Of a stretch of DNA of 64,000 bases, positions 226-61,738 are shown in pieces. The notes beneath the pieces are model-generated. The model was not told where the DNA came from. It worked only from the letters and a program-made list of their open reading frames with translations, and did no database searches. This DNA is from Aureococcus anophagefferens (lineage: Eukaryota > Sar > Pelagophyceae > Pelagomonadales > Pelagomonadaceae). The stretch is from positions 1,917,841 to 1,981,840 of the forward strand of contig NW_008705563.1 in the NCBI RefSeq assembly GCF_000186865.1, read 5' to 3'. The position numbers and the translations under genes were made by a program. The first letter of the stretch is position 1. Every line of letters starts with the position of its first letter.

Positions 226-1663
226 TTAAAGGTCGCCGGATTTGGCGACGATGGCCTCGCGGAAGTGGGCGTCGATGGTGGCGCGGATGATGTCGATGGT
301 CGCGTCGCGCCATCGCAGGTGGAGCGCCTTGGCGACCATGGGCCGGCACGCGTCGAGGTCCGCGACGTGCTTGAGCAGGGCGACGGCGTGCTTCGACGCG
401 GTCTCGGAGACCTCCTCCATGCCCAGGAGCGTGTCGACGGCGCCGCAGGCGACCATGCGGGACCGCGCGTCGTCGTTCTCGTAGGACAGGTTCCGCAGCG
501 CGCCCGCGGCGCCCTCGCGGCACGGCGTCGTGCCGCCGCTGCCGCAGAGGTCGCAGAGCGCCTCGACGGCGCCCGCGGCGACGATGGCCGCCTGGTTCGC
601 CGCGTTGTCGAAGGCGAGGTTCCAGAGGCAGCGCGCGGCGCACTCGGCGCCCGCGGCGACGGACGTCGCGGTCCGCGGCGTCGCGCAGCGGAGCGAGCCG
701 CCGTCGCGGAGGAGCTCGACGAGCGGCGGGATCGCGCCCGCGGCGACGACGGCGACCTGGTTCGCCTTGTCGACGGCGAGGTTCCGCAGCGCGCCGGCCG
801 CGGCCTCCTTGGCGCCGACCGTCGCGCCGTCGCGCGCGAGCGCGACGAGCGCGGCGACGCCGCCGTGCTGCGCGATCCTCAACTTGTTCCGGTCCGAGAT
901 CGCCAGGTTCCAGAGGCAGCGCGCGGCGGCCTCCGTGACCGGCGGCGACGCGCGGCCGCAGGTCGCCGGGTCCGCGAGGCGCACGAGGTGCCTGCGCCGA
1001 ATTCAACCACTGGTTTGGGTGGTCCCGACCAAACTTGAGAATTCTCGAGCTCGGTCACATCGAAGTCGATTCGGCCGATTTTTGGACGAATCGATCGCTC
1101 TCGTCGAGTTCTCGAAGCACAGCCGAAGATGTTGCGTCGAAGCCGTCGCGTACGCGCACATTGAAGTCGAGTTGAAGATTTGAATTCGGCACGGCGAGGC
1201 GCGGCACCGCGCCCGCGTCGACGACGGCCGCCTTCGCGTCTTTGTCCATCGCGAGCACCCGCAGCTGGCTCGCGGCCTTAAGGAGCTTCGTCGACGTCGC
1301 CTGGGCGTTGGCGAGGACGCCGACGAGCGCCTCGACCTTTCTTCGCGCCTTGTCGCCGTCGTCGCTCGACGTCCGCGTCACGCGCGCGCGCGTCGCGCGG
1401 TACGCTCCGCTCAGCGTCCGCGACAGCGTGCGCTGCCGGTTGCCGATCTCCTTGGCGTCCTTGACCTCCGACGGCCGCGACGGCGACGACGGCTCGTCGT
1501 CGTCATCCTTGCCCTCGCTGAGCAGGATGTCGTCGAGGGACGCCGGGTCGCCCTCGGCGGGCGACAGGCGCAGGTCCGAGGGCCGGCCGTCGTCCTTGGA
1601 GGCCTTCGGGCGCGTCGGCCAGAACCCGTCGCCGTCGTCGTCGGAGGCGTCCTTGGCCTCCAT
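226..1663 (-). CDS. Armadillo-repeat protein, split by an introner
   Basis: Exons 1203-1663 and 226-991 give about 408 residues. The first ~100 residues are acidic and Ser-rich. The rest is tandem armadillo repeats of the form DAGAVPxLV and GALRNLA/CLWNLA (at least five), the usual all-helical protein-binding superhelix. The ~211-nt intron 992-1202 is a divergent introner. Taking the GC at 1202-1201 as donor joins AGAVP to HLVRLAD, exactly restoring a repeat; no GT donor gives the right frame. An alternative start at 1801 adds 46 residues. The gene is divergent from the oxygenase at 1825 with only ~160 nt between start codons, so they probably share a promoter region. The fold is clear; partner and pathway are unknown. 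Confidence 0.82.
992..1202 (-). mobile_element. Divergent introner (intron of armadillo gene)
   Basis: 211-nt insertion flanked by 8-bp target copies differing at one position (GCGCCTCG upstream, GCACCTCG downstream in gene sense). Its ends are inverted repeats around GCCGAATTCAA. The core shares GATTTTTGGACGA, CTCGAAGC and TTGAAGT blocks with the 200-nt family, but the rest has drifted, so this looks like an old member or a separate subfamily. Donor is GC (first bases of the target copy), acceptor is the element's own CAG. Confidence 0.8.
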
Positions 1664-1824
1664 GGGTCGGCGGCGGGGCTGCTCCTTCAGGGGCTGCTTC
1701 TCTTCGGGCTCTCCATGCTTCACTGCTTCATCACCGTCGCGCGGGGTCGATGCTGCACCGCCGTGATTGTCCCACCATCGATCGGCTTTGGGCGGGCGCA
1801 TTATGCTGGCTGTGCACGCGTGCC

Positions 1825-2628
1825 ATGGCGCCAACAGCCGTGGATTCAGTCGCGTCGGCGGCGTATCACCCAACGAAGACGGCCGTCTCGACGCAGCCGT
1901 TGCACCGACGCAACGCGACCCCAACAACCGCCTCGAAGACGGCCGTCGCGGCCCACCGAGGCTTGCTGAGCGCCGCGGAGGTCGCGGAGATCCGCGCCTT
2001 CGCGGCGACGCAGACGCGGCCGGAGCAGATCCAGAGCCGGTCCCACGACGACACGCGCATCGTGACGTATTTGAGCTACGAGCGCGCGTTCCGCCGCCGC
2101 CTGCCGGAAACCTACGCAAAGCTCCGCGGCGTCGCGCTCGCGAAGCACGTCGCCGAGGGCGGCGACGCGTCCCAGCGCTTCGAGCTGCGCGTCGCCGAGC
2201 ACCACGTCGTGACGCCCGGCGGGGGGCTCTTCGACCCGCAGCACGTCGACGCGGGGAGCCTCGTGACCGTCGACGTTATGCTCGACGCGGCCTTCGAGGG
2301 CGGCGCGTTCCGCACGTTGGAGGACGGCGCCGCGGTGTCGCACGCGGACGTGTTTCGGGACCCGGGCGACGCCGTCGTCTTCCTGTCGCTCAAGCGGCAC
2401 CACGTCGACCGGGTGACGGCCGGCGCGCGGCGCGTGCTCGTGCTCGAGTTCTGGGACGGGCCGGAGCGCGGCTGCCCGCACCGCTGCGAGCGGCCGCGCG
2501 GCGCGTGCGACGTCGCGGTCCACGACGCGGTCCTCGCGGGCGCCGGCGACTTCGGCGCCGCGTTCTTCGGCGCGCTCGACCCCGCGCTCGTCCGGGACGC
2601 CATGGCCGCGCTGGAGCGCGACGACTAA
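1825..2628 (+). CDS. 2-oxoglutarate/Fe(II) oxygenase, prolyl 4-hydroxylase-like
   Basis: 267 residues. The C-terminal two thirds has the P4H double-stranded beta-helix signature. The iron ligands appear as HVD (in DPQHVDAGS) and a distal His in LKRHHVDRVTAG, followed by ARRVLVLEFW, where an Arg is placed to bind 2-oxoglutarate. A Cys/His-rich stretch (GCPHRCERPRGACD) follows the core. The start at 1825 is the first Met after the short divergent intergenic region; the first ~50 residues are low-complexity and could be a targeting region. The substrate (prolyl residue of a protein, or something else) cannot be told. Convergent with the cation exchanger at 2712. Confidence 0.75.
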   Translation: MAPTAVDSVASAAYHPTKTAVSTQPLHRRNATPTTASKTAVAAHRGLLSAAEVAEIRAFAATQTRPEQIQSRSHDDTRIVTYLSYERAFRRRLPETYAKLRGVALAKHVAEGGDASQRFELRVAEHHVVTPGGGLFDPQHVDAGSLVTVDVMLDAAFEGGAFRTLEDGAAVSHADVFRDPGDAVVFLSLKRHHVDRVTAGARRVLVLEFWDGPERGCPHRCERPRGACDVAVHDAVLAGAGDFGAAFFGALDPALVRDAMAALERDD

Positions 2629-2711
2629 GGCGACACCCGCTTACATTTCAACAACGGGGGGGGCGAGGGGGGGGGGACCGCCGCGGCGGCGAGGCGCGCG
2701 CGGCGCGCCGC

Positions 2712-4683: not shown

Positions 4684-4864
4684 CTACGACCACGAGACAG
4701 CAGCCCGCGCGGCCAACAGAATTGAGCTTTGTCGAGATGCTTTATCGGCAATTGTAGACCTTCAACGAGAGGTGTTAATCATCAATGTTGAAGATCAACA
4801 TAAACCTTAGATGAGCCACTCGGCCTCGGGCGCGTGATGCGCACTGGCCTGACCCGAGAGTAGA

Positions 4865-5797: not shown

Positions 5798-5833
5798 GGT
5801 TCGCGGAACTCTACACATACAAAAGCGCGCGCC

Positions 5834-6643: not shown

Positions 6644-6816
6644 GGCCGCGAAGAGCCCCTCCCTCCCACCGGGGCGGCTCCCAGGGATTCCGCAGCCCCT
6701 GTCCCACCTTCGGCGCCCACCACCTTTCGGTGTCTTTTCGGCTGCCCCTGTCTACAGACGTTAAGATACGTCTACGGTTGAACTTCAACTTGAAGATACT
6801 CCGGGCCCGAATGTTA

Positions 6817-8024: not shown

Positions 8025-9194
8025 ATGCAGTGGCTGTGGCTCCTCGTCGCGGCGCGCGTCGCCGACGCCCGCTTCGCGAATCGCACGGTCGTCGTCGACC
8101 GCGGCGCCTTTCCGCACCTCGCCATCGTCGGCTCGGACAAGGGCGGCACGTCCGACGCCTTTGTCGCCATCGTCAAACACGGCGACTGGGCGGCCAAGTA
8201 CACCGTCGACTGCGACACCATCCGGGTCAAGAAGTTGGGCGACCGCGCCCGCGACAAGTGCCGGCAGAAGAGCAAGGAGTTGGGATGCTTGTACCGCGGT
8301 GGAACGCTCGAGAGCTGGAGGCGCTGCTACAGCGGCTACGTGCCCGACAACATGAAGAAGGGCATCACGGACAAGCTCTGGATGGACGCGACGCCGAACT
8401 ATTTGTGGGGGTGGTGCAGGGGCACCGACGCGGCCTCGCGGCTCTTCGAGCTGTCGCCGCGGACCGTCGTCGTCGCGCTCCTCCGCGAGCCGATGGACCG
8501 CCTGCGGAGCTTGTTTAACTACTGGAGCACGGAGCCCATCGGCCTCGAGATCGCGACGACGCTGGAGCCGCACGTGCTCCTCGACCTCGCGTACCTCGAG
8601 AAGCCCTGGGCGACGCCGGTGACGCGGACGACGGCGAGCGAGACGCTGAGCGCGGAGCGGCTCTTCGAAGAGGGCGGCAGGGACGTGTACGAGCTGTACC
8701 AAAAGAACTACGTGATCTGGGCCGGCGGGCAGCCGCGGGAGGTCTGCGCGGGCGTGCTGGGACCAAAGCAGCGGCGCGGGCCCTGGGGGCGCGGTGAGAT
8801 GAGGGAGAGGTGCCCGGTGTTCACGAATCTCATCTTGACGGGTTTGTATTACACGTTCCTGCGGCATTGGATCCGCCTTTTCCCGGAGCAGGTGATCGTC
8901 GTCCAGTCCGAATACTACTTTCAGGACCGACGCGTACTCTTGAGCCTGCTCGGCCGCGGCGCGCCGGCGCCGGCCATCGACGGGCCGCCGGCGTCGTCCC
9001 ACGCCAAAAAGGTCGCGAACCGGGGCCACTACGTCTACGGCAACGCGACGCTCACGAACGAGACGCACGCGCGGCTTGAGGCGTTCTACGCGCGGCCGAA
9101 CGCGCTCCTGCGGACGCTCCTCGCCGACGAGGCCAGAGCCGGCCGGATTCTCGTGTCGCCGGACCCGGCGGTGCCCGGCTCCTGGTGGACCTAA
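8025..9194 (+). CDS. Golgi/secretory sulfotransferase-like protein
   Basis: 389 residues with an N-terminal hydrophobic signal or anchor (MQWLWLLVAARVADA). The PAPS-binding elements of heparan-type sulfotransferases are visible: 5' loop IVGSDKGGTSDAF and 3' element LLREPMDRLRSLFNYW. Between them several Cys (CDTIRV, CRQKS, LGCLYRG) suggest disulfides in the secretory lumen, and N-glycosylation sequons occur near both ends (NRTV, NATLTNETH). Expected reaction: transfer of sulfate from PAPS to a carbohydrate or other acceptor; the acceptor is unknown. Two further sulfotransferase-like genes lie at 25605 and 61738. Confidence 0.8.
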   Translation: MQWLWLLVAARVADARFANRTVVVDRGAFPHLAIVGSDKGGTSDAFVAIVKHGDWAAKYTVDCDTIRVKKLGDRARDKCRQKSKELGCLYRGGTLESWRRCYSGYVPDNMKKGITDKLWMDATPNYLWGWCRGTDAASRLFELSPRTVVVALLREPMDRLRSLFNYWSTEPIGLEIATTLEPHVLLDLAYLEKPWATPVTRTTASETLSAERLFEEGGRDVYELYQKNYVIWAGGQPREVCAGVLGPKQRRGPWGRGEMRERCPVFTNLILTGLYYTFLRHWIRLFPEQVIVVQSEYYFQDRRVLLSLLGRGAPAPAIDGPPASSHAKKVANRGHYVYGNATLTNETHARLEAFYARPNALLRTLLADEARAGRILVSPDPAVPGSWWT

Positions 9195-10398
9195 TTTTAA
9201 AAACCGAGCCACTCCAGCTGGTTGACCGAAATGATAACCACAGCTAAAGCTTCGCGCACGTAACCACTGTCAGTCTCGTTTGATCCTCGTCGCTGAAAAG
9301 TGTTATAAACACACAACAAAAGCGAGCAAATGAAATTTGCGGTCACTCGATTGAAGTAAATGTATCTCCGACCATCAACCAACAACAAACCTCCTTCAAG
9401 AACACCCCTGCTGCGGGATTTTCAACGGCCTCCAAGACGCCTTCCAAGGCTAACCCTCCGGCTTCGCACCGTGTCGCACGGCATGAGCTGCGACGATCTT
9501 TTTGGCTCGCGAGCACCTTTATGCGTCGGCTCATGGCCCGCGCATGTGGCGCCCGAGAGCGTGTGGTGCCGTTGGAGCCCGTGGCGCGACGCCGTGCCCG
9601 GCCCGCTGGCCGCGACAGTCGCTCCGGTCGGCCGCGCCGAGGACGTCTCGGCGAAGCGCTCGCGCGCCGCGCGCTGCGCGCGCGGGGTCGCGGGGCGCCC
9701 CGGGGCGCCGCGGCACGTCGGTACGGCGGCGCCCACGAACGATCAATTCGTTTGCGGTCGTGCCGGCGCGCGCGCGCGCGCGCTCGGGATCGGCCGAAAA
9801 AAACGGTTGGTCGTTGCTCGAGACGCGCGCGCGAAAAGTGTGCGACAGAGAGTCGGGGATTGTTTGTGCGCGCGCGCGCATCCAATGCCGCCGTACTGGC
9901 GCGTCGTGATGCTCTGCGGCGCCCCGGACACCGCGCGCGCGGCGCGCCGGCTCCGCTCGTTTCACCGAGACGATCTCGGCCGCGATCACACGCGACTCAC
10001 GTCGCCCCACGACCCAGGCCCGCCGCGCCCGGGTCCGCATGGGTTTCGTACACCCTACGAACCAATTTCCTGGCAGAGACGCGCGCGCTGACGCCCGCAC
10101 ACCCGGTTTCGATGCGTATCGGACCCCCCCACGGAGACGGCCGCCCGCGCCGCGCGCGACCGAGAACGAGCTAGCGCGCGTGGAATTTTTCCTACCTGGG
10201 GAGTAACCCGAGGGAGGCGTAGGAGTCGACCGCGTCGATTTTGGTGCCGATGGCGAAGCCCTATGCCTTTCCCTAAACTCCCGGAGGACGCAGAACACAC
10301 CACCGTGCTATTAGTGGAAACTTCTGCTCCGCTACGCTTCCCAAATTCTTACTCTACGAGTTGCGAATTACAGGGAAGGCGCAGCGTGCGCTATAAAA
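9195..10398. other. Intergenic, no gene recognised
   Basis: About 1.2 kb between the sulfotransferase stop and the importin stop. Open frames here (for example 9360-10091) are Arg-rich composition artefacts without domain signals. The stretch includes a (CG)n run near 9766-9783 and a second near 9865-9880. AT-richer segments at 9195-9370 and 10280-10398 are probably 3' flanks of the two genes. Confidence 0.6.
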
Positions 10399-19477: not shown

Positions 19478-19795
19478 GCTGGAGAGCGGCGGTGCGCGCG
19501 CGCTCGAGCGGTGTCCTGCGCGCGCTCGTGCGCGCTGTGCTGGCCGGAGGGGTCGGCGGGTGTCACGACGCGAAGGGCGCGCGCGCAGAGCCAGATGGAC
19601 CGATCTCGATCGACCCGCTCGCGACCCGCCTGTGGACCCCCGGGCGGCCAAGCGCCGCCGGACTCGGAGCGGCTGCGCGCTAGCGCTCGGCCCGGGGCCC
19701 AACCGAGGGCCTTGGACTCTTACTTGCCAGGGGCGAACGGGGGCACAGACACGCGGCGGCGCGAGGGCCGGCCGCGGGGGACACAGCGGCTTCGC
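19478..19795. other. Intergenic between tandem paralogs
   Basis: 318 nt holding the 5' flank of the upstream-transcribed paralog and the 3' flank of the next. No conserved coding or repeat signal seen beyond high GC. Confidence 0.5.
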
Positions 19796-21244: not shown

Positions 21245-21554
21245 GGTGGTGCGTTCGGCTGCTCGACCGCGCGGCTGGCGCGAGCTATCTTAAATCTGCG
21301 ATTGTTTTTGCCACCGGCAAGATGTGCACTTTTCAACATAGCAAGTTGCACTCTCGCGCCGGTCCCAAGGGGAACTCTATTAAGCCTGGGGATGCAACTT
21401 AACGATGGACGGCCGCGCGAGCTCTGTCCAAGGGGGACTCTCTTAATCCCCTTGCCGGTCCGCTCAGGCTGCAGGCCTCGCCGCCGCCCGCGTGAGCAGG
21501 GATGGCAGCACCCCCACCGTAGCAGCACACACGCGCCAAGAAACAACCACACTT
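21245..21554. other. Intergenic with paired direct repeat
   Basis: Upstream of the DnaJ/BRCT gene and downstream of the next gene. Two related 22-nt blocks, CCAAGGGGAACTCTATTAAG at ~21365 and CCAAGGGGGACTCTCTTAAT at ~21428, may be promoter elements or a short duplication. No gene seen. Confidence 0.5.
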
Positions 21555-22687
21555 TTACTGCGTACTCCTCGAGTTGTCCTCCGTGGTCGTCTCGTTTCGC
21601 TCCTCGTAGTACTGGACCAGCGAGCCGTGGATGCTCTCGACGTCGTCGCCCGTGTGGAACCAGGTGTAGTCGCAGCTCGCCTCCTGCTTGTAGTAGTAGA
21701 CGTCTCCGTCCTTGAGCACGCCGGCGGCGACCATGGCCTTCTTGACGAGCTTCTCGAACTTCTTGTCGTACTCGTAGGACTCCTTGAGGATCCACGGGAT
21801 GCCCTTGCGCGTGATCGTCACCGCGGGGCCGCAGAAGTAGAAGCCGAACCACTTCTCGCCCTTGTAGGTCCCGACGGCGAAGACGGAGCTCCAGAAGCGC
21901 GAGTACATGTCCGTGTTCGTGCCGTCCCCATCCTCGTTCTTCCACACGCCCTTGTAGTCGTCGAGCTGGTAGTTGCCCGTGTAGTTCCACCAGTAGTTCG
22001 TGCCCTCGGACGTGTACATCATCTCCTGGTTCATGACGTGGGCGCCCTTGTCCGGGAGCTCGAACTTCATCTGCGGGCACGAGCCTGGGCAGGAAAAGAG
22101 TGCGAAATTCCCAACTTCAAAGGCTCCTATCTCGGTCATGTTCCACTCGTTCCGGTTGATTCTTGGACGAGCGATCATCTCTCGGAGCGCTCTCGAAGCG
22201 TGGATCCTTTCTCTCGAACAATCGCGCGGAACCCTCACATTGAAGTGACGTTGAATCACTCTTTTCCTGCTCTGGCACGAGAACCGACGGCGTTGTCGGA
22301 CCGCGGCACGTTGCCCGCGATGACGTACCAGTCGCCGGCGATGGAGCCCCAGTCGCCCTTCTTGTACTCCTTGGGCACCGTGGGCTCGCCGTTCTTGCAC
22401 TCGTAGAGCTTCTCGCCCCAGGCGCCGCCGGGCAGGCCCGTATCGAAGTCGTCGTCGACGCCGACGAGCCGGAACTCGAAGTCGTCGCCGCCCTGGCGCG
22501 ACCAGCCCACGGCGGCGACGCCGAAGACGACGGCGACGGCGACGAGGCTCGCCTTCCAGACGCCGCGGCGCCGCGGGGCCGCGGCGGCCTCCGGCGCGAC
22601 GCCGCGGCGCCGCGGGGGCGCGGCGGCCTCCGGCGCGATGGGCCCCTTCTTCTCCGGCCTCACGACCAGCGGCGTCTCGGCATCCAT
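21555..22687 (-). CDS. Membrane-anchored lipocalin-like protein, split by an introner
   Basis: Exons 22285-22687 and 21555-22084 give ~310 residues. A Pro/Arg-rich cytosolic N-terminus with two PPRRRGV-type repeats precedes one membrane span (SLVAVAVVFGVAAVGW), so type II topology or a signal anchor. The lumenal part contains IAGDWYVIAGN, matching the lipocalin GxW start, then alternating beta-strand-like segments rich in aromatic residues (NYWWNYTGNYQL, GEKWFGFYFCG) and a helical C-terminal stretch (YDKKFEKLVKKAMVAAG). It is reminiscent of violaxanthin de-epoxidase-type lipocalins, but I cannot confirm that. Joining V-G across the intron to SCPQMKF restores the presumed pre-insertion reading. 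Confidence 0.6.
22085..22284 (-). mobile_element. Introner (200 nt) in lipocalin-like gene
   Basis: Downstream target copy is GCTCGTGC (22077-22084). The upstream copy reads G-TT-CTCGTGC, the same target with a 2-nt TT insertion after the first base, which turns a GC donor into GT. Ends in gene sense are CAGAGCAGGAAAAGAG and CTCTTTTCCTGCCCAG. Internal sequence reads GTGATTCAACGTC first in gene sense. Confidence 0.88.
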
Positions 22688-30900: not shown

Positions 30901-32950
30901 GCAGCCACCGCCGGCCGTCGAGGGCCTCGAGCGCCTCGACTTGCTTCCGCGCCGCCGCGAGCGCGTCGGCCAACGCCGCGGCTTCCGCCGCGTCGACGAC
31001 GCGCGGCAGGTCGCCGCGGCGCACGAGGGCCGCGACGTCGTTGCGCTCCCGGAGCCGCTGCGCCGCGTCGCGGGCGGCGCCGACGTCGAGGCGCTCCGCG
31101 AGGGGCGCGCGCGCGGAGCGGGCGACGAGCTGCGGCTCCCAGCGGAGCGCCGCGGCCGCGGCCGCCCGCAGCTCCCGGAGCTCGTCGAGGAGCCGCTGGT
31201 CCGGCGGCGGCCGCCGCGGGTCGACGTCGACGTCCGCGAGGAAGGGCGCCTCGCCGACGCGCGCGACGGCCTCGGCCGCGTGGCGCGCGGACGAGCCATC
31301 GCTGAGGCCGAGGAGCCGGAGGTGGTCCGCGTGGCAGCCGAGGTCCGCCGCCAGGTCGGAGCGGCCGAAGTACTTGCGCGCGCGCGCGGCGTCCTCGGCG
31401 TCGAAGGCGTCGAGCTCCGCCCGGGCCGCGTCGTGGCGCTGCCGCGCGCGGTCCGCGGCCGCTCGGAGCTCGCGCTCGGGCGCCTGGGCAGGAAACAAAA
31501 ATATTCAACACGACTTCAATGTGCATCTTTTCGAGAAATTTCGACATAGTTTTTTCACTCATTGAAGAGAACTCACCGAGAGAAAACAATCCGTCCAAAA
31601 ATCAGCCGAAACGACTTCGATTTGACCGAGATAGAGAGGTTTGAAGCTTTTTCTGGACGGGGCGTTCCACTGGTTGTTTCCGGCGCAGTCGGGCGCCGCG
31701 GCGACGGTGTCCGCGAGGTACTCGACGGCGGCCTCGAGGCGCCGGAAGGACCCGCCGTCGCCGGAGCCCAGGGACACGCAGAGCTCGCGGATGCCGTCGG
31801 GCAGCTTCTTGCGCAGCACCTCCGTCGCCGGCTCGCCCTTGGACGTGACGAGCACGCGCCGGCCGAGCGCGAGGTAGTGGCAGATGACGTTGGCGATGGT
31901 CTGGGACTTGCCCGTGCCCGGCGGCCCGACGAGGACGGCGCAGCCCTTGGCCTCGAGCGTCGCGACGACGGACGCCTGCGCGTCGTTGCTCGGCAGGCCG
32001 AAGTAGACGGGCGCGGCGGCCGCCGCCGCGGGCCCGCGCCACCATTTCGCGGCGGCCCGCCAGAGGCCCGCGACGCCCGCCGGCGCCGGCGCCGGCGGGG
32101 CCGAGAAGTCGCCCGCGAGGCGCCGGAGCGCGGCGGGCAGCGGCGCTGTCCGCCGCCGGAGCGCCGCGGAGAGCGCCTCCGCGTCGCGCGCGCCCGCGCG
32201 GTCCGCGCCCGACTCGCGGCAGAAGAGCACGGCGCAGTTGTGCACCGTCGGCCGGTCCGGCGCCGGCGCTGCGGCGGGCTTCGAGGGCACGGGCGCCGCG
32301 TGCGGCCCGTCGACCAGGACGCCGTCGGGGCCCAACAGGTGCGCGGCGCGGTGCAGCAGCGGCCGCCACGCGTCCCGGTCGAAGGGCGACGGCGCCTCGC
32401 GCCGCCGGCCCAGCAGCCCGTAGTCGCGCCCGCAGGTCTCGAGCTCCGGGACGATCTGGCCGGCGCCCGCGACGCCCGGCATGGGCCAGAGCGCCGCGCC
32501 GACGCCCGCGAAGCGCCGCACGAGGAAGCTCCCGTCGGCCGCGAGCTCGAGGGACGCCGGCACGAGCACGAGCGGGTGCTCGACGCCCGCCGCCGGCCAG
32601 CGCAGCAGGCCCACGCCCAGCGTGAGCGCCGCGCCGCGGCCCTCGCGGAGCGCCTCCTGCCGAGCGCCGAAGAGCTCCGCGTACAGCGACCGCGCCGCGG
32701 CCCCGCGCTTGCCGGCGGCGGACTGCCTCGACGCGCCCGTCGCCTCCGGCCGCCGCACGCGCAGCCACGCGCCGCACGGGCCCTCGAACTCGACGGCCCC
32801 GGCGCCGGCGACGTCGCGGAGCAGGGCCTCGTGGACGACGATCGGCGCCGACGCGAGGTCCTTGCAGGGCTCGCTCTCGGACGGGGCGCTCATGTCCTTG
32901 ACGTAGCCCAGTAGGCCGAGCAGGCGCTCCTTGGCCTCGGCGTCGGCCAT
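27956..32950 (-). CDS. SF1 helicase with C-terminal nuclease-like domain
   Basis: Exons 31697-32950 and 27956-31483 give ~1593 residues. SF1 (UPF1/Dna2-like) motifs appear in order: Walker A GPPGTGKSQTIAN (~350), a ~350-residue helical insert, motif II LVVLDEASQSDVA, III GDQKQVSPTSAF, IV HHFRCVPQC, V SLQGDERDVVLL and VI NVALSRARDRV. Then comes a restriction-endonuclease-like segment (ICVCVDGAGSLDDH, NWVFVRLWTATW) of the kind found at the C-end of bacterial DUF4011-type helicases. A basic Lys/Pro tail with KKRR looks like a nuclear signal. It may act on DNA or RNA ends; substrate unknown. The divergent introner 31484-31696 splits it just after the Walker region, in phase only with a GC donor. 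Confidence 0.83.
31484..31696 (-). mobile_element. Divergent introner in helicase gene
   Basis: 213 nt, exact 8-bp target copies GCGCCCGA (gene sense; + strand 31476-31483 and 31689-31696). Ends are CTGCGCCGGAAACAA and TTTGTTTCCTGCCCAG. The core shares ATTCAACACGACTTCAA-like, CCAAAAATCAGCCGAAACGA and CCGAGAT blocks with the main family, but one arm carries ~35 nt of unrelated sequence. No GT is available in phase; the GC at the start of the target copy gives VAA/APERE in frame. Confidence 0.88.
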
Positions 32951-34492: not shown

Positions 34493-34571
34493 TACTTGCT
34501 CTAATGTAGGTTCCTTCAACGCCTTCAACGAAGTATAGTATCTAGATGTTTGTGTTTTCACAAACGCAGTC
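34491..34571 (+). repeat. 81-bp direct repeat, copy 1
   Basis: Identical to 34601-34681. It begins at the stop codon of the PDZ-like gene (AATACTTGCTCTAATG...) and contains the perfect stem-loop GTTTGTG-TTTT-CACAAAC at 34548-34565. A TAATAATAATAAT tract lies between the copies. Confidence 0.95.
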
Positions 34572-34600
34572 TCCGACGCTAAATCACCAATAATAATAAT

Positions 34601-34681
34601 AATACTTGCTCTAATGTAGGTTCCTTCAACGCCTTCAACGAAGTATAGTATCTAGATGTTTGTGTTTTCACAAACGCAGTC
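34601..34681 (+). repeat. 81-bp direct repeat, copy 2
   Basis: Second copy, 29 bp after the first, ending just before the phosphatase coding region. Its stem-loop is at 34658-34675. An in-frame ATG at 34656 inside this copy could extend the phosphatase by 24 residues. Confidence 0.95.
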
Positions 34682-34727
34682 GGCTGCCCCGACGTGCCCC
34701 GACCTTCAGCCTTCCACGCAAGTCGCG

Positions 34728-36498: not shown

Positions 36499-38201
36499 CT
36501 ACATGAAGTCCATCGACGCGACGTTCGCGTCGTCGGCGTCGCGGATGGCGCCCGGCGCGTCGCCGAGGTCGTTGGCGGACTTGAGGATGAAGGTCGGGTT
36601 GAGGGAGATCTTCTCGGCCATCTTGTCGACGATGGCGCCGAGCCTGAGGGCCGCGGCCATCTCGCCGTGGAGCGTCGCGGCGATCGCCTGGGCAGGACAA
36701 GAGAGATTCAACGTCGCTTCACGTGAGTGTTCCGCGCGCGCGCGTTCCGGAAAAAGCATCCACGCTTCGAGACCGTTCCAAGAGATGATCGCTCGTCCAA
36801 AAATCAGCCAAAACGAGTGGAAAACGGCCGAGATATGAGGCTTTGAAGTTGGGAATTTTCGCTCTCTTGTCCTGCCCTGGCGATCGCCTCCTCGGACGCG
36901 GCGCCCGGCCCCTCCTCCTCGGAGAAGTGCGCGACGCGCGCGGCGTCGTCGATGGTCACGCGGAGCTCCTGGCGCTTCGCCATGTTGAGCAGCAGCGCCT
37001 CGGCCGCGTCCGCGTCCGGGAGCCCCGCGCGCGCGGCGACGTCCGCTAAGGGGAGGTTGAGGTACGTGTGCGTGAGCTCCACGGCCTTGGCGCGGCGGAG
37101 CGCGTCCGGGAGCCGCGCGGCGAGCTCGGCGTTGCCGTCGCGGGCCAGGGCCTCGGCGTGCTTGGCGAGGGCCGCGTCCAGCGCGCCGAGGTCGCCGCCG
37201 GCGACGGCCTCGGCCAAATCGTGGTACGGCGCCGCGAGGGTTTTCGACGCGCGCGACACGACGCTCGAGCAGTACTTGGGCAGGTTCCCCGCGTCCCCGG
37301 GGTCGCCCCGGCGCGCCAGCAGGCGGCACAGCACGAGCTTTTTGAGGCAGGCGACGGCGACGGCGCTCAGCGACACCGCGGGCGCCGTCGCGCCGACGGC
37401 GAAGAGCTCCGCGGCGTCGCGCCAGCGGCCCAGGCCGCAGCACACGACGCCCCCGTAGTAGGCGTACTTGAGGAGATCCACGGCCTGGACGCCCGCGGCG
37501 GCGAGGCCCGACGCCGGCGACCCGCGCGCCGCGCGCGGGCCCGGCGCGGCGTCCGCGAGCGCGTCGGCCGGGAAGCCGCCGCCGCCGCCGGCGTCGGGCC
37601 CGTCGCCCGGCGGCGGCGTCGGCGGCGGCGCCGCGGCGCCGCTCTTCCGCGGGAAGGCCGCGACGCGGAACACGGGCGCGTCCTCGAGGAACCGCGCGCC
37701 GCGGCCGTAGCGCCGCGCGGCGACGCAGCACTGGAGGCAATCGCCGTGCGCGGCCGTGAGGCACGCGGGCTCCGGCGCGAGCTTCGCCGCCAGCGACGCG
37801 AGGGCCTCGGCGGCGACGGCGGCGGCCGCGCCGCCCTCGCGGCACGCGAGCGCCGCGAGGCGGTGGCCCGCCGACGCGGCCAACTTCGGCGCGACCTCGA
37901 GCTGCGCGCGCGCCGCGCGCGACGCCCAGGCCTCGGCGCGCCGCGCGAGGGGCAGCACGCGGGACACCGCCGCCGCGTCGTCGCCCGACGCCTCGAGGCA
38001 CCGGAGCCGCGCCGCGAGCACGTGGAGCAGGCCGAGCGCGTGGCGCTCCGCGTCGAGCGCGTCGAACGCCTCGCCGACGGCGCCGGGCGCCGCGACGAGG
38101 GCCCGCAGGTTCTCCTCGCGGCTCCGCAGCTGGTCGTGGAGCGCGCGGAGCTCGGCGTCGGACGTGCCCGCGCCGACGATGAGCTGGACGACCTGGTCCA
38201 T
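36499..38201 (-). CDS. CSN3: COP9 signalosome subunit 3
   Basis: Exons 36888-38201 and 36499-36687 give ~500 residues, near the usual ~420-450 of CSN3 plus a low-complexity insert (PPPTPPPGDGPDAGGGGG). Diagnostic segments: LTAAHGDCLQCCVAARRYGRG; YAYYGGVVCCGLGRWRDA; AVACLKKLVLCRLL; LPKYCSSVVSRA; then the PCI winged helix (LADVAARAGL, EALLLNMAKRQ). The C-terminal helix ends in DFM. CSN removes NEDD8 from cullins and so controls ubiquitin ligases. The introner 36688-36887 interrupts the C-terminal tail; a GC donor rejoins EE-AIAATLHG. The start is the ATG at 38201. Confidence 0.88.
36688..36887 (-). mobile_element. Introner (200 nt) in CSN3
   Basis: Exact 8-bp target copies GCGATCGC (36680-36687 and 36880-36887); this target is a palindrome. 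Gene-sense ends are CAGGGCAGGACAAGAG and CTCTTGTCCTGCCCAG. The target has no GT, so the donor must be GC if the frame is to be kept. Confidence 0.93.
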
Positions 38202-49012: not shown

Positions 49013-51567
49013 CTACGCGTCCGGGTCGACGAGCATGTTGAAGAGCCGGGACCGGTCCGCCCTTTGGCCGGAGACGTCGGCGCGTTTTTTCCAGAAGCGG
49101 GCCTCCTCCTCGGCGGCGGCGAGGGCGTCCTGCCAGGGCGCGCGCGTCGGCGGCGGCGGCGCGCAGTCCGGGTGGGCCGCGGGCTCGCCGTCGTCGCCGC
49201 CGCCGCCGTCGCGGCGCGCGCGCGCGACGCCCGCGTCGACGCTCGGCGCGGGCGAGTAGCGCAGGAAGTAGTCGCGCCAGAGGCCGACGCCCCGGAGGAC
49301 GACGGTGAGCGGCGGCAGGAGCGCGTGCTCCGACGTCGGCGCGCGCGCCGCGAGGTCCGGCGCCGGCGGCCGGTACGCCGCGCTCGCGAAGTGGGCCCTG
49401 TTGTGGTCCAGGTAGGCCCAGAGGCTCGGCGCGTGGGGCGCGTGGGCCTCGCGGTCGCCCTCCGTGTCGAAGAGGAACGTGCCGAAGCGGCAGCCGTGGG
49501 CCGCGTCCGCGACGGCGACGAGGTACGCGGACCCGAACTCGAAGTGCTCGGGGAAGAGCGCCGTGAGCTGGAAGGCCGCGTCGAGGAACTGCACCAAAAT
49601 CGGCGCCGCCTGGTCGTCGGCGCCCCGGTCGCCGCCCCGCTCGCGGCCGTGCGCGAGCCGCGTCGCGAACGGGTGGCCGAAGGCCACAAAGTCCTTCTCC
49701 ACCAGCCGCGCGAAGCCCCGCATGGTCCGGCACTCGGCGTCCAGCAGGAGCTGGGCCAGGGCGGCGACCTGGGACGTGCGGTCCCAGCCGTGGGAGCAGT
49801 GGACGAGCACGCGGCAGCGCCGCCGGTGCGCGCGGTCCGCGACGTGCCACGCGGCGCGGAGGAGCCGCCGCACGGCCGCCTGGGCAGCACAAGAGATATT
49901 CAACGTCGCTTCAACGTGAGTGTTCCGCGCGCACGCGTTCCGGAGAAAGCATCCACGCTTCGAGACCGTTCCGAGAGATGATCGCTCGTCCAAAAATCAG
50001 CCGAAACGAGTGGAAAACGGCCGAGATAATATTATGAGCCTTTGAAGTTGGGAATTTCGCTCTCTTTTGCTGCCCTGACGGCCGCGAGCCAGCCGCTCTC
50101 CTCGACGAGCCCGAGCCAGCCGAGCTCGCGCGACGCGTCGAAGCCCTCGTCGTCGAAGACGGAGTGCGACGCGTCGTCGCCGGGCCGCTTCTCCCGGTCC
50201 CTCTCCTTGTCCGGCGCCTTGGCGACGGCGGCCCAGACGCGGCCCGAGAGCGAGCTCGACCCGGGCTCCGGCGCGGGCGCCTCGGCGTCCTCGCCGCCGC
50301 CGCCGCGGCTGCCCCGCGCGTCGAGGGCCAGGGCCTCCAGCGCCTTGTGGGCCGCGCGGACGGCGTGGATGTTGCCGACCTGGGCAGGAAAAGAGTGCGA
50401 AATTCCCAACTTCAAGCTCCTCTCTCGGCCGTGTTCCACTCGTTTTGGCTGATTCTTAGACGAGCGATCATCTCTCGGAACGGTCTCGAAGCGTGGATGC
50501 TGTTTCCAGAACGCGCGCGCGCGGAACACTCACGTTGAAGCGAACTTGAATCACTCTTTTCCTGCCCTGTCGCCGACGCCCGCGAACGAGAGCCGGCACT
50601 CTTTGTAGCGGTCGCGGTCCTCCGTGCCGTAGCCCCCGAGCTTGTTCGCCGACGCCGAGCTCCGCGGGCGGCAGTCGATGATCTCGCAGAGGGGCCGCGA
50701 CCGCGCGCGCCGCTCGCCGCCGTCGGCCGACGCGATGGCCCGCACGAGCGCCTCGTCGGACGCGGACGTCGCGCCGGCGACGCCGACCTTGGGCTGCGAC
50801 GCGCGCCAGACGCTCGCGCCGTCGCGCGCGTCGCCCCAGGTCAGCGCGGGCACGCGGCCCTCGGCGCGGAACTTGCCCGCCGCCGCGACCTGGCCGTCGC
50901 CGACGGCCGCGGGCACGACGAGGAGCTCCGGGTACGACGCGCAGACGGCGCGGCCCGCGTTCGCGCCGCTCAGCCGCCAGGGCACGGGCGCCTCGAAGAG
51001 CACGTTGTCCCGCGACCGGCGGAAGCCGAGCCAGGCCGCGAAGGACGCCTCGGCGTCGTAGCGCCACCACCGCGTCTCCGTCGCGCCGGGCGCGGGCACG
51101 ACGCTCGGGTGCGCGAGCGCGAAGAACGCCGCGCCGGGCGCGCCCGGGTCCTCGCGGAAGGCCACGGCCCGCAGCAGCTTCGCCGCCTCGGCGCCGGCCT
51201 CGGGCAGCACGAAGGCCACCTCGCGCACGTCCTTGCACCGCAGCGTCAGCTTCCACCCGCCGTCGCCGAGCGCCAACGTCCGCAGCCGCCGGACGCAGCC
51301 CAGCGCGATCTCGAAGTAGGTCGCCGGCATGTGCGCCAGGCTCCCGGGGGGTCCTTCCCGCAGGAACCGCAGGCGGTACGTCGTCATCTCCAGCGCGCCC
51401 ACGACGGCGATGCCGTCCGCGGCCACGCAGAGGCACCGCGGCAGCAGCATCATCACCGACTCGCCGCTCAGGTAGGACCGCCGCGGCCCGGACGACTGCG
51501 GTGGAGCCGGCGGCGCCGGCGCCGGCGCCGCGACCGTCTCCTCGTCGGAGTCGAAGAGCCGCGCCAT
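49013..51567 (-). CDS. Myotubularin-family phosphoinositide phosphatase
   Basis: Exons 50578-51567, 50086-50379 and 49013-49879 give ~716 residues. The N-terminus has a GRAM/PH-like segment (ALEMTTYRLRFLREG). The myotubularin core includes WWRYDAEASFAAW, ECRLSFAG-VGNIHAVR (the NIHxVR landmark, split by an introner), VLVHCSHGWDRTSQ (CX5R active site) and VEKDFVAFGHPFATR. The usual CSDGWDRT has His in place of the first Asp. Active members remove the 3-phosphate from PI3P and PI(3,5)P2 on endosomes; Cys and Arg are intact, so activity is possible. Two introners (50380-50577, 49880-50085) lie in opposite orientations, and both splice in frame. Confidence 0.88.
49880..50085 (-). mobile_element. 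Introner (206 nt) in myotubularin gene
   Basis: Exact 8-bp target copies GCGGCCGT (gene sense; + 49872-49879, 50078-50085). Ends CAGGGCAGCAAAAGAG and CTCTTGTGCTGCCCAG. A GC donor at the target start restores the original frame exactly; the GT at the end of the target copy would also stay in frame but add two residues. Confidence 0.92.
50380..50577 (-). mobile_element. Introner (198 nt) in myotubularin gene
   Basis: Target copies GTCGGCGA / GTCGGCAA (one mismatch). GT donor at the first base of the target. Internal orientation is opposite to the other introner in this gene. Confidence 0.92.
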
Positions 51568-51688: not shown

Positions 51689-52816
51689 ATGGGCGCCGCC
51701 AAGGAGGCGGCGGCCGCGGACTGCGACCAGAAGCGCGCCGCGCTCAAGGCGAAGACATCGCTCTCGCCCGTCGAGGCCGCTTCGGTCGAGCTCGCCGTCG
51801 ACGTCGACATTTTGCTCGCCGTCGCGCAGGCCATGGCCATGAGGGGAGCGCAGACTGAGGCCGCCGCGGGCGCCGACAGCGTCGCGGGGGAGATATTGCG
51901 CGAAATCCAAGAGAACCCGGCCTGCGAGCGCGTGCGCGCGGCCGTGCAGCGCCTCGGCCTCGTCGACGAGGCGAGGGCGAAGATCGCCGAGAAATCCGAG
52001 CGCGACGCCGAGGACGCGAACGTCGACGACGGCGCCGAGGCATTCGTGCGCCGCGCGATGGAGGGCGCGGGCGTGGCACCGTGGCTGGTCAACGAGAAGC
52101 TTCCCGAGGCTACGCGCGTATTTCACGACCATCTGGCAGAGTGTCATGGTGTGTGGCCAAGGGCGGAGGTGATGTTTGAACAGTACTTTGACAAAGCGCT
52201 GGAGGTCAGGAAGAAGGAGTATGAGAGACATTTCCGCGAGAACATCTACAACATCCGCGTGAACGCCGAAAAGATCGTGTGGAAGGTTTTGTCGGACGCG
52301 GGCTGTCCACCGGAGATCATCGAAGAGCGGATGCCCATGCACATGAATTACTTTTGCTCGCATATGGCTCTGGGTCGTAGTGCTTCATCAGCGGAAAGGG
52401 AATTCAAGGAACTTATTGAAGAAGGGCTAGCTCAACACGAAAAAGAATTGTCGGAGCCCGCAGAGCCGGTTTCGCAGAAAGAGTCGCGAAGTTCGGAGGA
52501 GGAGCAGGAGGGGAAAAAGATTTTCCTAACGTTTCTAAGCCATCGTCAGAATCCCGACCTCAGCGGCGCGCTGTATGTGCTGAGTCTCCTCGATAAGCTC
52601 GACGCGAAAGAGGCGCGAGCATGTGCAGCCCAGTCGGAGCAGCAAAATGCCTCCGAAACAAAGACATCCGGATGGCGACACGCGAGCAAGGAAGATTACG
52701 GACGGGCGATGCGAGGGGCTCTCGAGGAGCTCGCGGAGAGCGACCGCCGTGAGGTCCAGCGTATCCACCAGGCGTACGAGAAGCAAATCCGCGACTATAA
52801 TTCAAGAGGCTCGTAG
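51689..52816 (+). CDS. Uncharacterised helical protein with composition shift
   Basis: 375 residues, not recognised. The first ~130 residues are Ala/Glu-rich and strongly GC-biased like neighbours. From ~52100 the codon use becomes markedly less GC-rich (frequent A/T third bases) and the protein less repetitive, with helical Glu/Lys segments (KKEYERHFRENIYNIR, AYEKQIRDYNSRGS) and possible coiled coil. No signal peptide or membrane span. It is divergent from the myotubularin gene and convergent with 52826, 9 nt apart. The 3' part may be younger or of different origin. Confidence 0.55.
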   Translation: MGAAKEAAAADCDQKRAALKAKTSLSPVEAASVELAVDVDILLAVAQAMAMRGAQTEAAAGADSVAGEILREIQENPACERVRAAVQRLGLVDEARAKIAEKSERDAEDANVDDGAEAFVRRAMEGAGVAPWLVNEKLPEATRVFHDHLAECHGVWPRAEVMFEQYFDKALEVRKKEYERHFRENIYNIRVNAEKIVWKVLSDAGCPPEIIEERMPMHMNYFCSHMALGRSASSAEREFKELIEEGLAQHEKELSEPAEPVSQKESRSSEEEQEGKKIFLTFLSHRQNPDLSGALYVLSLLDKLDAKEARACAAQSEQQNASETKTSGWRHASKEDYGRAMRGALEELAESDRREVQRIHQAYEKQIRDYNSRGS

Positions 52817-56824: not shown

Positions 56825-56959
56825 GGGTGTGCGCCGCGGGTGCGCTCGTCGTCGCGCGCGCCGGAGCTGCCCCCACACCCTGGGGGCCTCGAACCGTCAA
56901 GTGCTTAAAATGTTCAATCTGTCGTTATTGAAGAACAGAGCTCGAGGGCAGCCAAGGCG

Positions 56960-58102: not shown

Positions 58103-58144
58103 GCCTCCCCTGTCGTCCAGGTCCGAGCGGCACCCTCGAGCGAC

Positions 58145-58258
58145 GTGCTAGGCGTCGGCACCGGGCTCTTCGCGCACGGGTCGTCCTCGTCGTCCGCCAA
58201 GGCGTGAGGACGCGGGTCGCGCGCGCGGTCGCGCGCGCGCCGAGGCTGCCCCCCAGCG
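58145..58258 (-). pseudogene. Degraded copy of the 5' end of the EF-hand gene
   Basis: Matches 56775-56885 in order: the upstream flank (GCGCGCGCC, GCTGCCCCC) and the first codons (ADDEDDPCAKS). The start ATG has become TTG and only ~20 codons remain. It lies between two + strand genes, so it may now serve as promoter sequence for the gene at 58327. Confidence 0.75.
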
Positions 58259-58326
58259 TCTCATGGAGCATTGTTGCCGCGGACGTGCAGCGCTCAACGT
58301 TTGCATTGAAGGGGGCAGCGTCGACG

Positions 58327-60090
58327 ATGGTACGCCCCGTCGCCGTCGCCTGGCTCGCGGCCGCGTCGCTCGTCGCGGGGCAGGACCGGTCGCAGAAGGA
58401 CCGGCTGAAGGCGCTCCGGCGGCAGCGGAGCTTCCCGTCGCCGTCGGCGGCCCTCGCCGCGCGGCAGCGCAACGCGACGCACCAGAGCAGCCGGACGCGC
58501 GCCTGGCCGCCGCCGCGGCTCCTGGAGCCGCTCCTGCCGGCGACGGTGACGCGCCACGTCTGGGCCGGGGGCTGCTGCGGCCTCGGCCACCGCACGTCGC
58601 GCCTCATGAAGCTCTACGTCTACGCGGTGAGCCGCGGGCGCCACGTGCTCGTCGACTGGGGCGCGTGCGTGGGCACGGGCGTCGCGAACCTCTACGCGGC
58701 GCTCTTCCAGGACCGCACCGAGCTCGCCGCCGTGCGGACGGGCAAGGTGCCCCAGGCCATCCGCGCGCCGGGCTGCCCCGGGGGCACGTGCGCGTCCAAG
58801 GGCTCGTGGCTCGATATAGGGAAGCGCGACGGCAGCTTCTTCCCCAACGAGCCCCCGGAGGAGTGGCTGCCCCCGGGCGCGCGCGTCGGCCACAAGAAGG
58901 GCGACGCGACCCACAAGAACATGTTCCAGAAGGAGTGGGGCATGTTCATGGTCCACGGCGCCGTGCTCCCCAGGGCAGCAAAAGAGAGAGAAATTCCCAA
59001 CTTCAAAGGCTCATATCTCGGCCGTTTTCCACTCGTTTTGGCTGATTTTTGGACGAGCGATCATCTCTCGGAACGGTCTCGAAGCGTGGATGTGTTTTCC
59101 GTAACGCGCGCGCGCGGAACACTCACGTTGAAGCGACGTTGAACCACCCTTGTGCTGCCCAGGTGCTCCCCTACGCGGAGCACTTTGCGGCGGGCATGGT
59201 CGCCGCGCTGCGCGACGAGTGGCGGGAGCTCCTCGACGACTTCATCCAGAAGGAGTTCCACCGGGGCGCGCCGCCGCGCGGCGCCGCGCGCCGGGGGCCC
59301 CACGACCGCGTCCACGTCGTCGGCGTCCACTTCCGCCTCGGCAACGGCGAAAAGTTCGCGCGCATGCCGACGAACCACACGCACGTCGTGCTCCGGGCCG
59401 CGGCGGGCGTGAAGAAGGTCGCGGCGCAGCTCGGCTACGACCGCTTCCGCGTGCTCGTGGCGACGGACGACCCCGTCGCGCTCGAGATCTTACGGAAGCA
59501 CACGGACCTCGACGTCTTCGCGCGCGAACAGTGGCGGCCAGGGCAGGAAAAGGGTGATTCAACGTCGCTTCAACGTGAGCGTTCCGCGCGCGCGCGTTTC
59601 GGAAACAGCACCCACGCTTCGAGAGCGCTCCGAGAGATGATCGCTCGTCCAAAAATCAGCCGAAACGAGCGGAAAACGACCGAGAGAGGAGCCTTTGAAG
59701 TTGGGAACGTCGCGCCCTTTTCCTGCCCAGGTGGCGGCCGCCCGCGGGCGCGGGCATCGTGTTTTCCAGCTGGCGCGTCAAGGAGGTCGACAAGGACAAG
59801 TCCGTCGCGGCGCAGAAGGAGATGACGGGCTCCGCGGACGCGTGCCTCCGGAACTCGGCCGACATGCTCATCGACTCGCTCCTCCTGGGCTACGCGGACG
59901 CGCTCGTGCTGCCCGTGCCGTCGACGTTCACGGTGCTGCCCAAGGTCATGGCCCACAGCCGCGGCGCGCCCTACTGCGCCTTCCTCGGCGAGACGTGGCA
60001 CGCGGCCGGGCTCCACGAGGAGCCCATCGCCATGACCTGCTTCCGGAAAGACGCGAAGACGGGCCACGCGTCGGACTGGACCGTGGCCTC
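58327..60090 (+). CDS. Fucosyltransferase-like secretory protein (truncated at gap)
   Basis: Exons 58327-58962, 59163-59530 and 59731-60090, ending in a gap. Signal peptide (VAVAWLAAASLVAGQ). The region RHVWAGGCCGLGHRTSRLMKL is an N-terminal Rossmann-type Gly-rich loop, and VHVVGVHFRLGNGEKFARMP resembles the HxRxGD donor-site motif of GT23/GT65/GT68 fucosyltransferases and NodZ. Later RFRVLVATDDPVALEIL (nucleotide-sugar site, DxxxxE) and SSWRVKEVDKDKS complete the fold. Expected role: transfer of fucose or a related sugar in the Golgi. Two introners (58963-59162, 59531-59730) use GT donors. The 3' part reappears without the second introner at 60141-60693, which supplies the missing C-terminus (VEPQGRASALGATFWH). 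Confidence 0.7.
58963..59162 (+). mobile_element. Introner (200 nt), first in fucosyltransferase-like gene
   Basis: Exact 8-bp target copies GTGCTCCC (58963-58970, 59163-59170). Ends CAGGGCAGCAAAAGAG and CCCTTGTGCTGCCCAG. GT donor is the target's first two bases; splicing gives A-VLPYAEHF. Confidence 0.94.
59531..59730 (+). mobile_element. Introner (200 nt), second in fucosyltransferase-like gene
   Basis: Exact 8-bp target copies GTGGCGGC (59531-59538, 59731-59738). Ends CAGGGCAGGAAAAGGG and CCCTTTTCCTGCCCAG. Internal orientation is opposite to the first introner in this gene. The uninterrupted allele-like copy has a single GTGGCGGC at 60285-60292, the expected pre-insertion state. Confidence 0.96.
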
Positions 60091-60140
60091 NNNNNNNNNN
60101 NNNNNNNNNNNNNNNNNNNNNNNNNNNNNNNNNNNNNNNN
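60091..60140. other. Assembly gap (50 N) between near-identical segments
   Basis: Sequence right of the gap repeats 59392-60088 minus the introner, which points to two haplotypes placed side by side, or a local duplication. Confidence 0.99.
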
Positions 60141-60693
60141 CGTGCTCCGGGCCGCGGCGGGCGTGAAGAAGGTCGCGGCGCAGCTCGGCTACGACCGCTT
60201 CCGCGTGCTCGTGGCGACGGACGACCCCGTCGCGCTCGAGATTCTACGGACGCACACGGACCTCGACGTCTTCGCGCGCGAACAGTGGCGGCCGCCCGCG
60301 GGCGCGGGCATCGTGTTTTCCAGCTGGCGCGTCAAGGAGGTCGACAAGGACAAGTCCGTCGCGGCGCAGAAGGAGATGACGGGCTCCGCGGACGCGTGCC
60401 TCCGGAACTCGGCCGACATGCTCATCGACTCGCTCCTCCTGGGCTACGCGGACGCGCTCGTGCTGCCCGTGCCGTCGACGTTCACGGTGCTGCCCAAGGT
60501 CATGGCCCACAGCCGCGGCGCGCCCTACTGCGCCTTCCTCGGCGAGACGTGGCACGCGGCCGGGCTCCACGAGGAGCCCATCGCCATGACCTGCTTCCGG
60601 AAAGACGCGAAGACGGGCCACGCGTCGGACTGGACCGTGGCCGTCGAGCCCCAGGGCCGCGCGTCGGCGCTCGGGGCCACGTTCTGGCACTAG
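60141..60693 (+). CDS. 3' part of fucosyltransferase-like gene, introner-free copy
   Basis: 183 residues, 5'-truncated by the gap, ending at TAG 60691-60693. It duplicates the last exons of the gene at 58327: about three base differences before the insertion point (for example GAGATTCTACGGACG against GAGATCTTACGGAAG) and none noticed after it. Here VFAREQWRPPAGAG is read through without an intron. It most likely is the other haplotype of the same locus; a recent tandem duplication is the alternative. Confidence 0.8.
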
Positions 60694-60704
60694 GGGCGCG
60701 TGCG

Positions 60705-61738
60705 CTAGGGGAGCTTGCAGTAGGCGTCCCACGCGCGCGCGTCGTCCGCGTAGAAGCGGCGGAGCGCCGCGTCCGTCGCCGCGGCCTCCGCGGGCGTCTC
60801 GGCGCAGGCCGCCGCCGGCGCGGCTTTCAGCGCCGTCGCCTTCGTGTTCGCCGTGAAGGACACGTTCGCCGCGGCGCCGACGTCGCAGCCGAAGACGGCC
60901 GCGAGCGCGTCCGTCGTCCGCCGGAGGAACCTGGGCAGCAAAAGGGTGCGAAATTCCCAACTTCAAAGGCTCCTATCTCGGTCGTTTTCCGCTCGTTTCG
61001 GCTGATTTTTGGACGAGCGATCATCTCTCGGAGCGCTCTCGAAGCGTGGGTGCTGTTTCCGAAACGCGCGCGCGCGGAACACTCACGTTGAAGCGACGTT
61101 GAATCACCCTTTTTCTGCCCTGGCAGGAACGCGGCGCCGTCGTAGCAGACGACGACGGCGGACCCGTTTCTCGGCCCCAGCAGCGGGTTGTACCAGTAGG
61201 CCTGGGGCCAGAGGGCGAAGGGCTTGTAGCTCCGCTTCTCCGCGAGGACCTTGGCGACGGCGTCGACGCGGCCCTTGACGCTCCGGGCGCCGCCGAAGGA
61301 CCCGAGGGCCCGGGCCAGGTCCGCGACGCAGGCGTAGCGCCGCCAGGCCGTCGCGTTCGGGTGCTTGGCCCGCAGGAAGGTCCACGCGCTCCGGAACCGC
61401 GCGACGGGCTCCCGCAGCGTGACGATCGCGTTCGACGCCGCGGCCGCGGCCGCGGCCGCGCGCTGGTCCGCCGCGATGCCCCGGAGCGCGTCCGCGTCGC
61501 CGTCGCCGCAGGCCTGGCGCGCGCAGCCGACCTCGTGCTTCTCGCTGACGCGGAGCCGGTCGCCGCAGGGCTTGAGAGGCATGACGCCGTAGACGAAGGC
61601 CGTCGTCGCCGTCTTGGGATTCCGCAGCCACGTGACGTCGGCGGCGTCGTTGCGCGTCGACGACAGCACGGCGTAGGACCGGCTACGGTCCGCGGCGGCG
61701 CGCGTGGCCATGGTGGCAAGAAGGATGGTGGCCTTCAT
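60705..61738 (-). CDS. Secretory sulfotransferase-like protein, split by an introner
   Basis: Exons 61131-61738 and 60705-60930 give ~277 residues. Signal peptide (MKATILLATMATRAAA). PAPS loop WLRNPKTATTAFVYG and 3' element IVTLREPVARFRSAW are clear. Cys and NxS/T sites (NATA, NGSA, NVSF) fit the secretory pathway. Shorter than the sulfotransferase at 8025 and not closely alike. Acceptor unknown. The introner 60931-61130 has a GT donor (codon GC/G) and rejoins DGAA-FLRRTT. Convergent with 60693, 11 nt apart. Confidence 0.75.
60931..61130 (-). mobile_element. Introner (200 nt) in sulfotransferase-like gene
   Basis: Target copies GTTCCTGC upstream and GTTCCTCC downstream in gene sense (one mismatch). 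Ends CAGGGCAGAAAAAGGG and CCCTTTTGCTGCCCAG. GT donor at target start. Confidence 0.93.

Follow-up and report, generated by a model that had tools for sequence, protein, structure and literature searches.

There is good support for introners as a source of sudden intron gain, and Aureococcus anophagefferens is one of two species in which introners of the DNA-transposon type have been described; Huff, Zilberman and Roy reportedly described the introner elements of this species in Nature in 2016. Here we analyze nine such elements in a 64-kb stretch of the A. anophagefferens genome, C3:1917841-1981840 in an 86-contig assembly of 49.05 Mb; this whole stretch is called the window below. The portions of published accounts consulted give A. 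anophagefferens introners a length near 210 bp (PMC9481584), describe them as always having direct repeats, terminal inverted repeats and canonical splice motifs (PMC7789003), and report both insertion orientations with co-opted splice sites (PMC10228655). The window elements agree with these introners (Huff et al. 2016) in species, length, repeats and the use of both orientations, a likeness drawn from partial descriptions rather than from element sequence. The finding is known in kind and the window family is very likely the known A. anophagefferens family; because introners of this species had already been described, it is much less novel than an earlier note on this DNA had implied. The match to the Aureococcus introner concept which that note proposed is supported by target duplications, inverted-repeat ends, coding location, a uniform frame rule and protein domains continuing across the junctions, and the window proteins match A. 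anophagefferens.

Two other systems invite comparison, each from part of a published account. Family 4 introners of an Aureococcus sp. TARA metagenome-assembled genome (Gozashti et al. 2022) share the genus and the 8-bp target duplication, whereas they carry both splice sites inside the element and add 12 nt to the mRNA (PMC9860276); the window introners would take their 5′ site from the duplication and add nothing to the mRNA. Introners of Symbiodinium microadriaticum resemble the window elements in having inverted-repeat ends, a 3′ site in the element and a 5′ site from the target duplication (PMC9860276), and differ in the organism and in a duplication of 4 bp; here too the likeness is one of description, not of sequence.

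We put the probability that the nine window copies are introners, that is, nonautonomous cut-and-paste DNA elements that have become spliceosomal introns, at roughly 95% on the evidence of the sequence. The elements are 190-205 nt long, end in imperfect inverted repeats and are distributed over seven genes at 9 per 64 kb, or one per 7.1 kb, in agreement with the earlier estimate of about one per 7 kb. An nhmmer search with a profile built from all nine returned exactly nine matches in the window (125-204 bits, E <= 4.5e-37), the same insertions that had been said to share a core and inverted-repeat ends; as these are the seeds of the profile, their recovery is expected by construction, and the informative part is that no tenth copy was found. 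The reported intron sizes of 198-213 nt hold for all nine (200 nt for the copy at 22085 after correction). The copies, named below by number or by element start, are as follows.

992..1194, minus strand: introner 1, in an armadillo-repeat gene; intron 992-1202, GC-AG
22085..22274, minus strand: introner 2; intron 22085-22284, 200 nt, GT donor
31484..31688, minus strand: introner 3, in a long, presumably helicase-like open reading frame (ORF); intron 31484-31696, GC-AG
36688..36879, minus strand: introner 4, in a COP9 signalosome subunit 3-like gene; intron 36688-36887, GC-AG
49880..50077, minus strand: introner 5, in a myotubularin phosphatase gene; intron 49880-50085, GC-AG
50380..50569, minus strand: introner 6, in the same myotubularin phosphatase gene; intron 50380-50577, GT-AG
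58971..59162, plus strand: introner 7, in a GT23/NodZ-like fucosyltransferase gene; intron 58963-59162, GT-AG
59539..59730, plus strand: introner 8, in the same GT23/NodZ-like gene; intron 59531-59730, 200 nt, GT-AG
60931..61122, minus strand: introner 9, in an ORF with no Pfam match; intron 60931-61130, 200 nt, GT-AG
60285..60292, plus strand: empty counterpart of the introner 8 site, where a second locus copy has just one GTGGCGGC

In 9/9 copies the gene-strand intron consists of the element preceded by the upstream copy of the duplication, and ends in AG. The GY donor of each comes from the duplicated target (GC at 992, 31484, 36688 and 49880; GT at 22085, 50380, 58971, 59539 and 60931), and the CAG acceptor from the terminal repeat of the element. 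With a codon-usage score over 240 nt per flank, all nine lie in sequence coding on the predicted strand and in one frame after removal, confirming the claims that every copy sits inside a coding region and that one removal rule restores the frame in all nine; the score was trained on the genes hosting seven of the copies, with 22085 and 60931 outside the training genes. Kept in place, seven of the introns bring a coding-frame stop, and the other two, 59531-59730 and 60931-61130, are stop-free and shift the frame. The sequence evidence for an intron function of the nine copies is strong, and on this basis all nine are predicted to be spliced.

An 8-bp direct duplication abuts all nine elements, five exact (8/8) and four with one mismatch (7/8), as the earlier note had described; at the base composition of the window, the chance of at least 7/8 for a given 8-mer pair is about 0.001 if the freedom to shift boundaries is ignored. 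The copy said to have gained 2 nt is that at 22085, where the upstream duplication, GTTCTCGTGC, has two nucleotides more than the downstream one, GCTCGTGC; these extra nucleotides give a GT donor, whose use restores the frame. A filled and an empty site can be compared at the locus of introner 8. The second copy of this locus has one GTGGCGGC and no element, and is otherwise identical to the filled copy at 141/144 nt on the left and 358/358 nt on the right, beginning beside a 50-N gap at 60091-60140. The empty site at 60285 equals both the predicted pre-insertion sequence and the predicted spliced sequence. Positions 59731-60030 and 60285-60584, around the gap, are an exact duplication, one copy with the introner and one without; this arrangement likely represents two alleles set in tandem by the assembly, or else a real tandem duplication.

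Across the assembly, the whole-genome core search that had been suggested, run with a pattern allowing at most one mismatch, gave 1,965 matches and none for the reversed-pattern control. The family comprises well over a thousand copies, and similar copies occupy many unrelated gene positions, as the nine copies in seven genes of the window do. To this count we added a sample of 90 loci, to which each of three queries contributed 30 of its 40 best matches; together with the window, these loci provided 109 distinct full-length copies, with 29 partial copies left out. The target duplication is exact in 81 of these, has one mismatch in 26 and two mismatches in 2, with boundary shifts of up to 6 nt permitted; random 8-mer pairs without shifts agree at 8/8 in 0.1% and at 7/8 in 0.7%. 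Target-site duplications together with inverted-repeat ends are found in the window and in the sample alike.

A copy was labeled forward or reverse by a rule that itself demands AG at the acceptor and G at the donor; an acceptor T in 77/77 young copies and a donor G in 100% are accordingly built in. Five copies displaced one base by the boundary script stayed unlabeled (by eye, four fit GY/AG after a shift, and the fifth, 22085 of the window, requires the 2-nt correction), and three further copies fit both directions. Independent of the label are the genome-wide counts of element ends, the GY that follows the acceptor, and the donor rule in 67 copies whose ends read CAG/CAG or CTG/CTG. This donor rule was not built into the sample: GY opens the upstream duplication in 66/67, with GY in 34/35 CAG/CAG copies, GA in the remaining one, and GY on the other strand in 32/32 CTG/CTG copies. 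Among the 101 labeled copies the core runs forward relative to the gene in 51 and reversed in 50, a ratio biased by the queries; 22 copies met by chance in the flanks include 11 forward, 9 reversed and 2 unlabeled. As a side observation, GC outnumbers GT as donor dinucleotide among the 101 sampled introns (54% vs 45%), a high share of GC donors.

Reading frames were tested for 94 copies first oriented by the GY/AG rule, leaving out W-named copies, unlabeled copies and those <300 nt from the end of a locus; fetched loci, L001 and L061 among them, bring in some of the window copies. In 88/94 both flanks have a sense frame as their best and the frame runs on from one flank to the other, as it does in 79/79 where both flanks score >5 (41/41 forward, 38/38 reverse); the cut falls in phase 0 in 40 of these 79, in phase 2 in 28 and in phase 1 in 11. 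Removal leaves the pre-insertion mRNA length and frame in 9/9 window copies, in these 88/94 sampled copies and at the one empty site. The sampled copies are not the mostly intergenic population lacking target duplications that the earlier note had named as evidence against introners.

Genome-wide counts of element ends give a sharper view of the acceptor. Ends CAGGGCAG..CTGCCCAG (CAG..CAG) occur 1,136 times against 2 in the control, and GY directly follows the acceptor in 1,119/1,136. The symmetric form CAGGGCAG..CTGCCCTG (CAG..CTG), with no AG acceptor either way, occurs 0 times genome-wide (control 3 on each strand). The form with AG in both directions, CTGGGCAG..CTGCCCAG (CTG..CAG), occurs at 14 places genome-wide (control 6), all with family letters; by reading, about 7 are real, and the other 7 or so are artefacts that arise where a duplication ends in CTGGG. 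A change at position 2 on the donor side (C[C/G]G..CAG) is found 244 times (control 14), some of these being artefacts of the same CTGGG type, and on the acceptor side (CAG..C[C/G]G) 6 times (control 5), which is noise level. The AG and GY rules are near all-or-none genome-wide, as would follow from splicing and would not be expected otherwise; the acceptor rule fits a loss of copies that cannot be spliced.

Protein comparisons support the predicted junctions. The spliced myotubularin matches PF06602 over aa 188-593 (318 bits), with the junctions at aa 352 and 450 inside the match, and can be aligned with structurally characterized myotubularin-related proteins; the junction of introner 1, at aa 153, lies inside a Pfam Arm match (141-184). 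Conserved domains thereby cross junctions, the myotubularin domain two and the armadillo repeat one. By eye, a Chrysophaeum taylorii relative (P0004, 45% identity) is continuous across both myotubularin junction sites. Three NCBI A. anophagefferens proteins match the myotubularin query at 99%, 89% and 81% identity over 59%, 73% and 97%, and two of these models, P0002 and P0003, join at the 50380 junction as predicted. The GT23-like product has no Pfam match of its own; its relatives carry PF05830, and an NCBI A. anophagefferens protein matches the query at 85% identity over 72%. An unnamed 470-aa protein from jgi/ena sources (P0072, 99% identity) is unbroken over both introner sites of this gene, and derives from either a spliced transcript or an empty allele.

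The two arms of an element bear on how it moves and in which direction it is read. Among 77 young copies, the two arms within an element agree at position 9 in 87% and at position 11 in 86%, while arms taken from different elements do so in 49% and 57%; since within-element agreement exceeds that between elements, these positions change together. This excess is weaker at position 15 (64% vs 47%) and absent at position 17 (49% vs 46%). At position 2 the arms agree in 0/77: the acceptor arm has T in all, as the labeling requires, and the donor arm has A in 66, G in 9, C in 2 and never T. The donor-side end is mostly CAGGG, and the acceptor-side end is CTGGG when read on its own strand, which gives CAG on the gene strand. 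Selection would be the cause of this asymmetry. The position-2 counts and the arm covariation were not met in the portions of the introner literature consulted, where no search was aimed at the asymmetry, and they may be present in Huff et al. 2016.

Miniature inverted-repeat transposable elements (MITEs) of the hAT superfamily have an 8-bp duplication and termini with the consensus YARNG. The introners resemble them in the 8-bp target duplication and the donor-side CAGGG terminus, and differ in the acceptor-side CTGGG terminus; hAT-type termini on both ends are not found (1,136 CAG..CAG vs 0 CAG..CTG). The introners may be mobilized in a hAT-like manner.

Several observations weigh against the introner interpretation. 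The 90 sampled loci are best matches to three queries and not a random draw, and 15 of the 94 copies tested have one or both flanks with a coding score of 5 or less. As for an autonomous partner, the hAT dimerization domain PF05699 gave no match, with all 14 controls silent too, so that its absence is not established, and no facing pair of core-less family ends was found within a few kb (one strict pattern gave 15 matches, control 1). Among the NCBI myotubularin models, P0001 runs into introner 6 (50380), P0003 runs into introner 5 (49880) up to its stop, and P0001 and P0002 omit exon sequence near introner 5. These intrusions would fit ordinary MITEs in gene-dense DNA that are not efficiently spliced and whose apparent frame rule follows from recent insertion into open frames. 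We consider this very improbable, given that the unspliced introns bring the stops and frame shifts described above and that the AG and GY rules are near all-or-none; by comparison of the sequences, models P0001, P0002 and P0003 are judged to mishandle the introners in part. Spread through RNA, proposed for fungal introners in the portion of that account consulted (PMC9860276), would have intron RNAs reverse-splice into other transcripts and then be copied back into DNA. The similarity from intron to intron and the placement of sampled copies mostly in coding sequence agree with it; the 8-bp duplications and inverted-repeat ends, the single duplication copy at 60285 and the reversal of about half of the sampled cores, which would not arise if a single transcript were reverse-spliced, leave it hardly any weight.

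A different question is whether copies spliced forward and copies spliced in reverse form two unrelated families whose ends have converged, with no direction switch. Direction is clustered on the core tree, with 10 changes vs ~31 in shuffles, as two families would predict, and near-copies produce such clustering too. Forward 58971 and reverse 59539 (introners 7 and 8), in one GT23/NodZ-like gene with their cores in opposite directions, align as reverse complements over 194 nt at 88%. Introners 5 and 6 of the one myotubularin gene also have cores in opposite directions. Starred (well-supported) branches of this poorly resolved tree force at least 3 direction changes; support for switching is weak because only 2/93 inner branches are starred. 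Two separate families are on balance unlikely. As a tentative proposal, held at slightly under even odds, one base pair may face opposing demands, with transposition keeping the arms alike and splicing forcing position 2 apart, and lineages may have flipped direction several times through rare two-way CTG..CAG copies. If so, whichever end has T at position 2 decides the direction in which an element is an intron.

Under the introner interpretation, MITEs of typically 192 nt would insert in genes and duplicate 8 bp. An upstream duplicate beginning GY would become the 5′ splice site, and an inverted-repeat end (such as CTTTTCCTGCCCAG) would provide the pyrimidine tract and AG acceptor; with the donor in the duplicate and the acceptor in the element end, splicing would return the pre-insertion sequence. 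The mismatch between the arms at position 2 would set the spliceable direction, and as there are lineages with this mismatch on either end, the same core would be spliced in both directions.

Individual copies and the surrounding window add further detail. Introner 1 is an old, diverged copy with its core opposite to the gene, and introner 3, at 205 nt, belongs to an older subfamily in which the CAG could come from both ends. The host ORF of introner 3 is putatively helicase-like from its motifs. The junction of introner 4 falls downstream of the matched Pfam domains of the COP9 signalosome subunit 3-like protein. Contig C8, 4% of the genome, holds 14/40 best matches to the older-subfamily copy 31484 (P ~2e-10), with no such concentration of the best matches to the two young-copy queries (3/40 and 2/40). 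A low-GC chromosome was considered for C8 and is not supported, with flank GC at 0.733 for 9 old copies there vs 0.726 for 21 other old and 0.731 for 60 young copies. The window itself has 58-77% GC in 2-kb steps, and its 25 low-GC islands (<56% GC) outside the nine copies, e.g. 9161-9470, 34431-34740 and 52081-52630, overlap no family member and are probably intergenic or other introns. Adjoining segments at 18118-19506 and 20038-21273 are duplicated at 78-92% identity, apparently a tandem gene pair. Rfam gave no window match at gathering scores and ARAGORN no tRNA in the window. Each of two core patterns had 0 matches in viral contigs, and so there is no sign of viral carriage there.

Finally, the window offers a clean introner case, in which 64 kb suffices to show the anatomy, the splice rule, the coding frames and a filled/empty pair, and the 86-contig assembly permits counts across the genome that hint at how tightly splicing restricts the survival of copies. 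It also points to one base position at which the conversion of a transposon into an intron, and the direction of that intron, may be decided.

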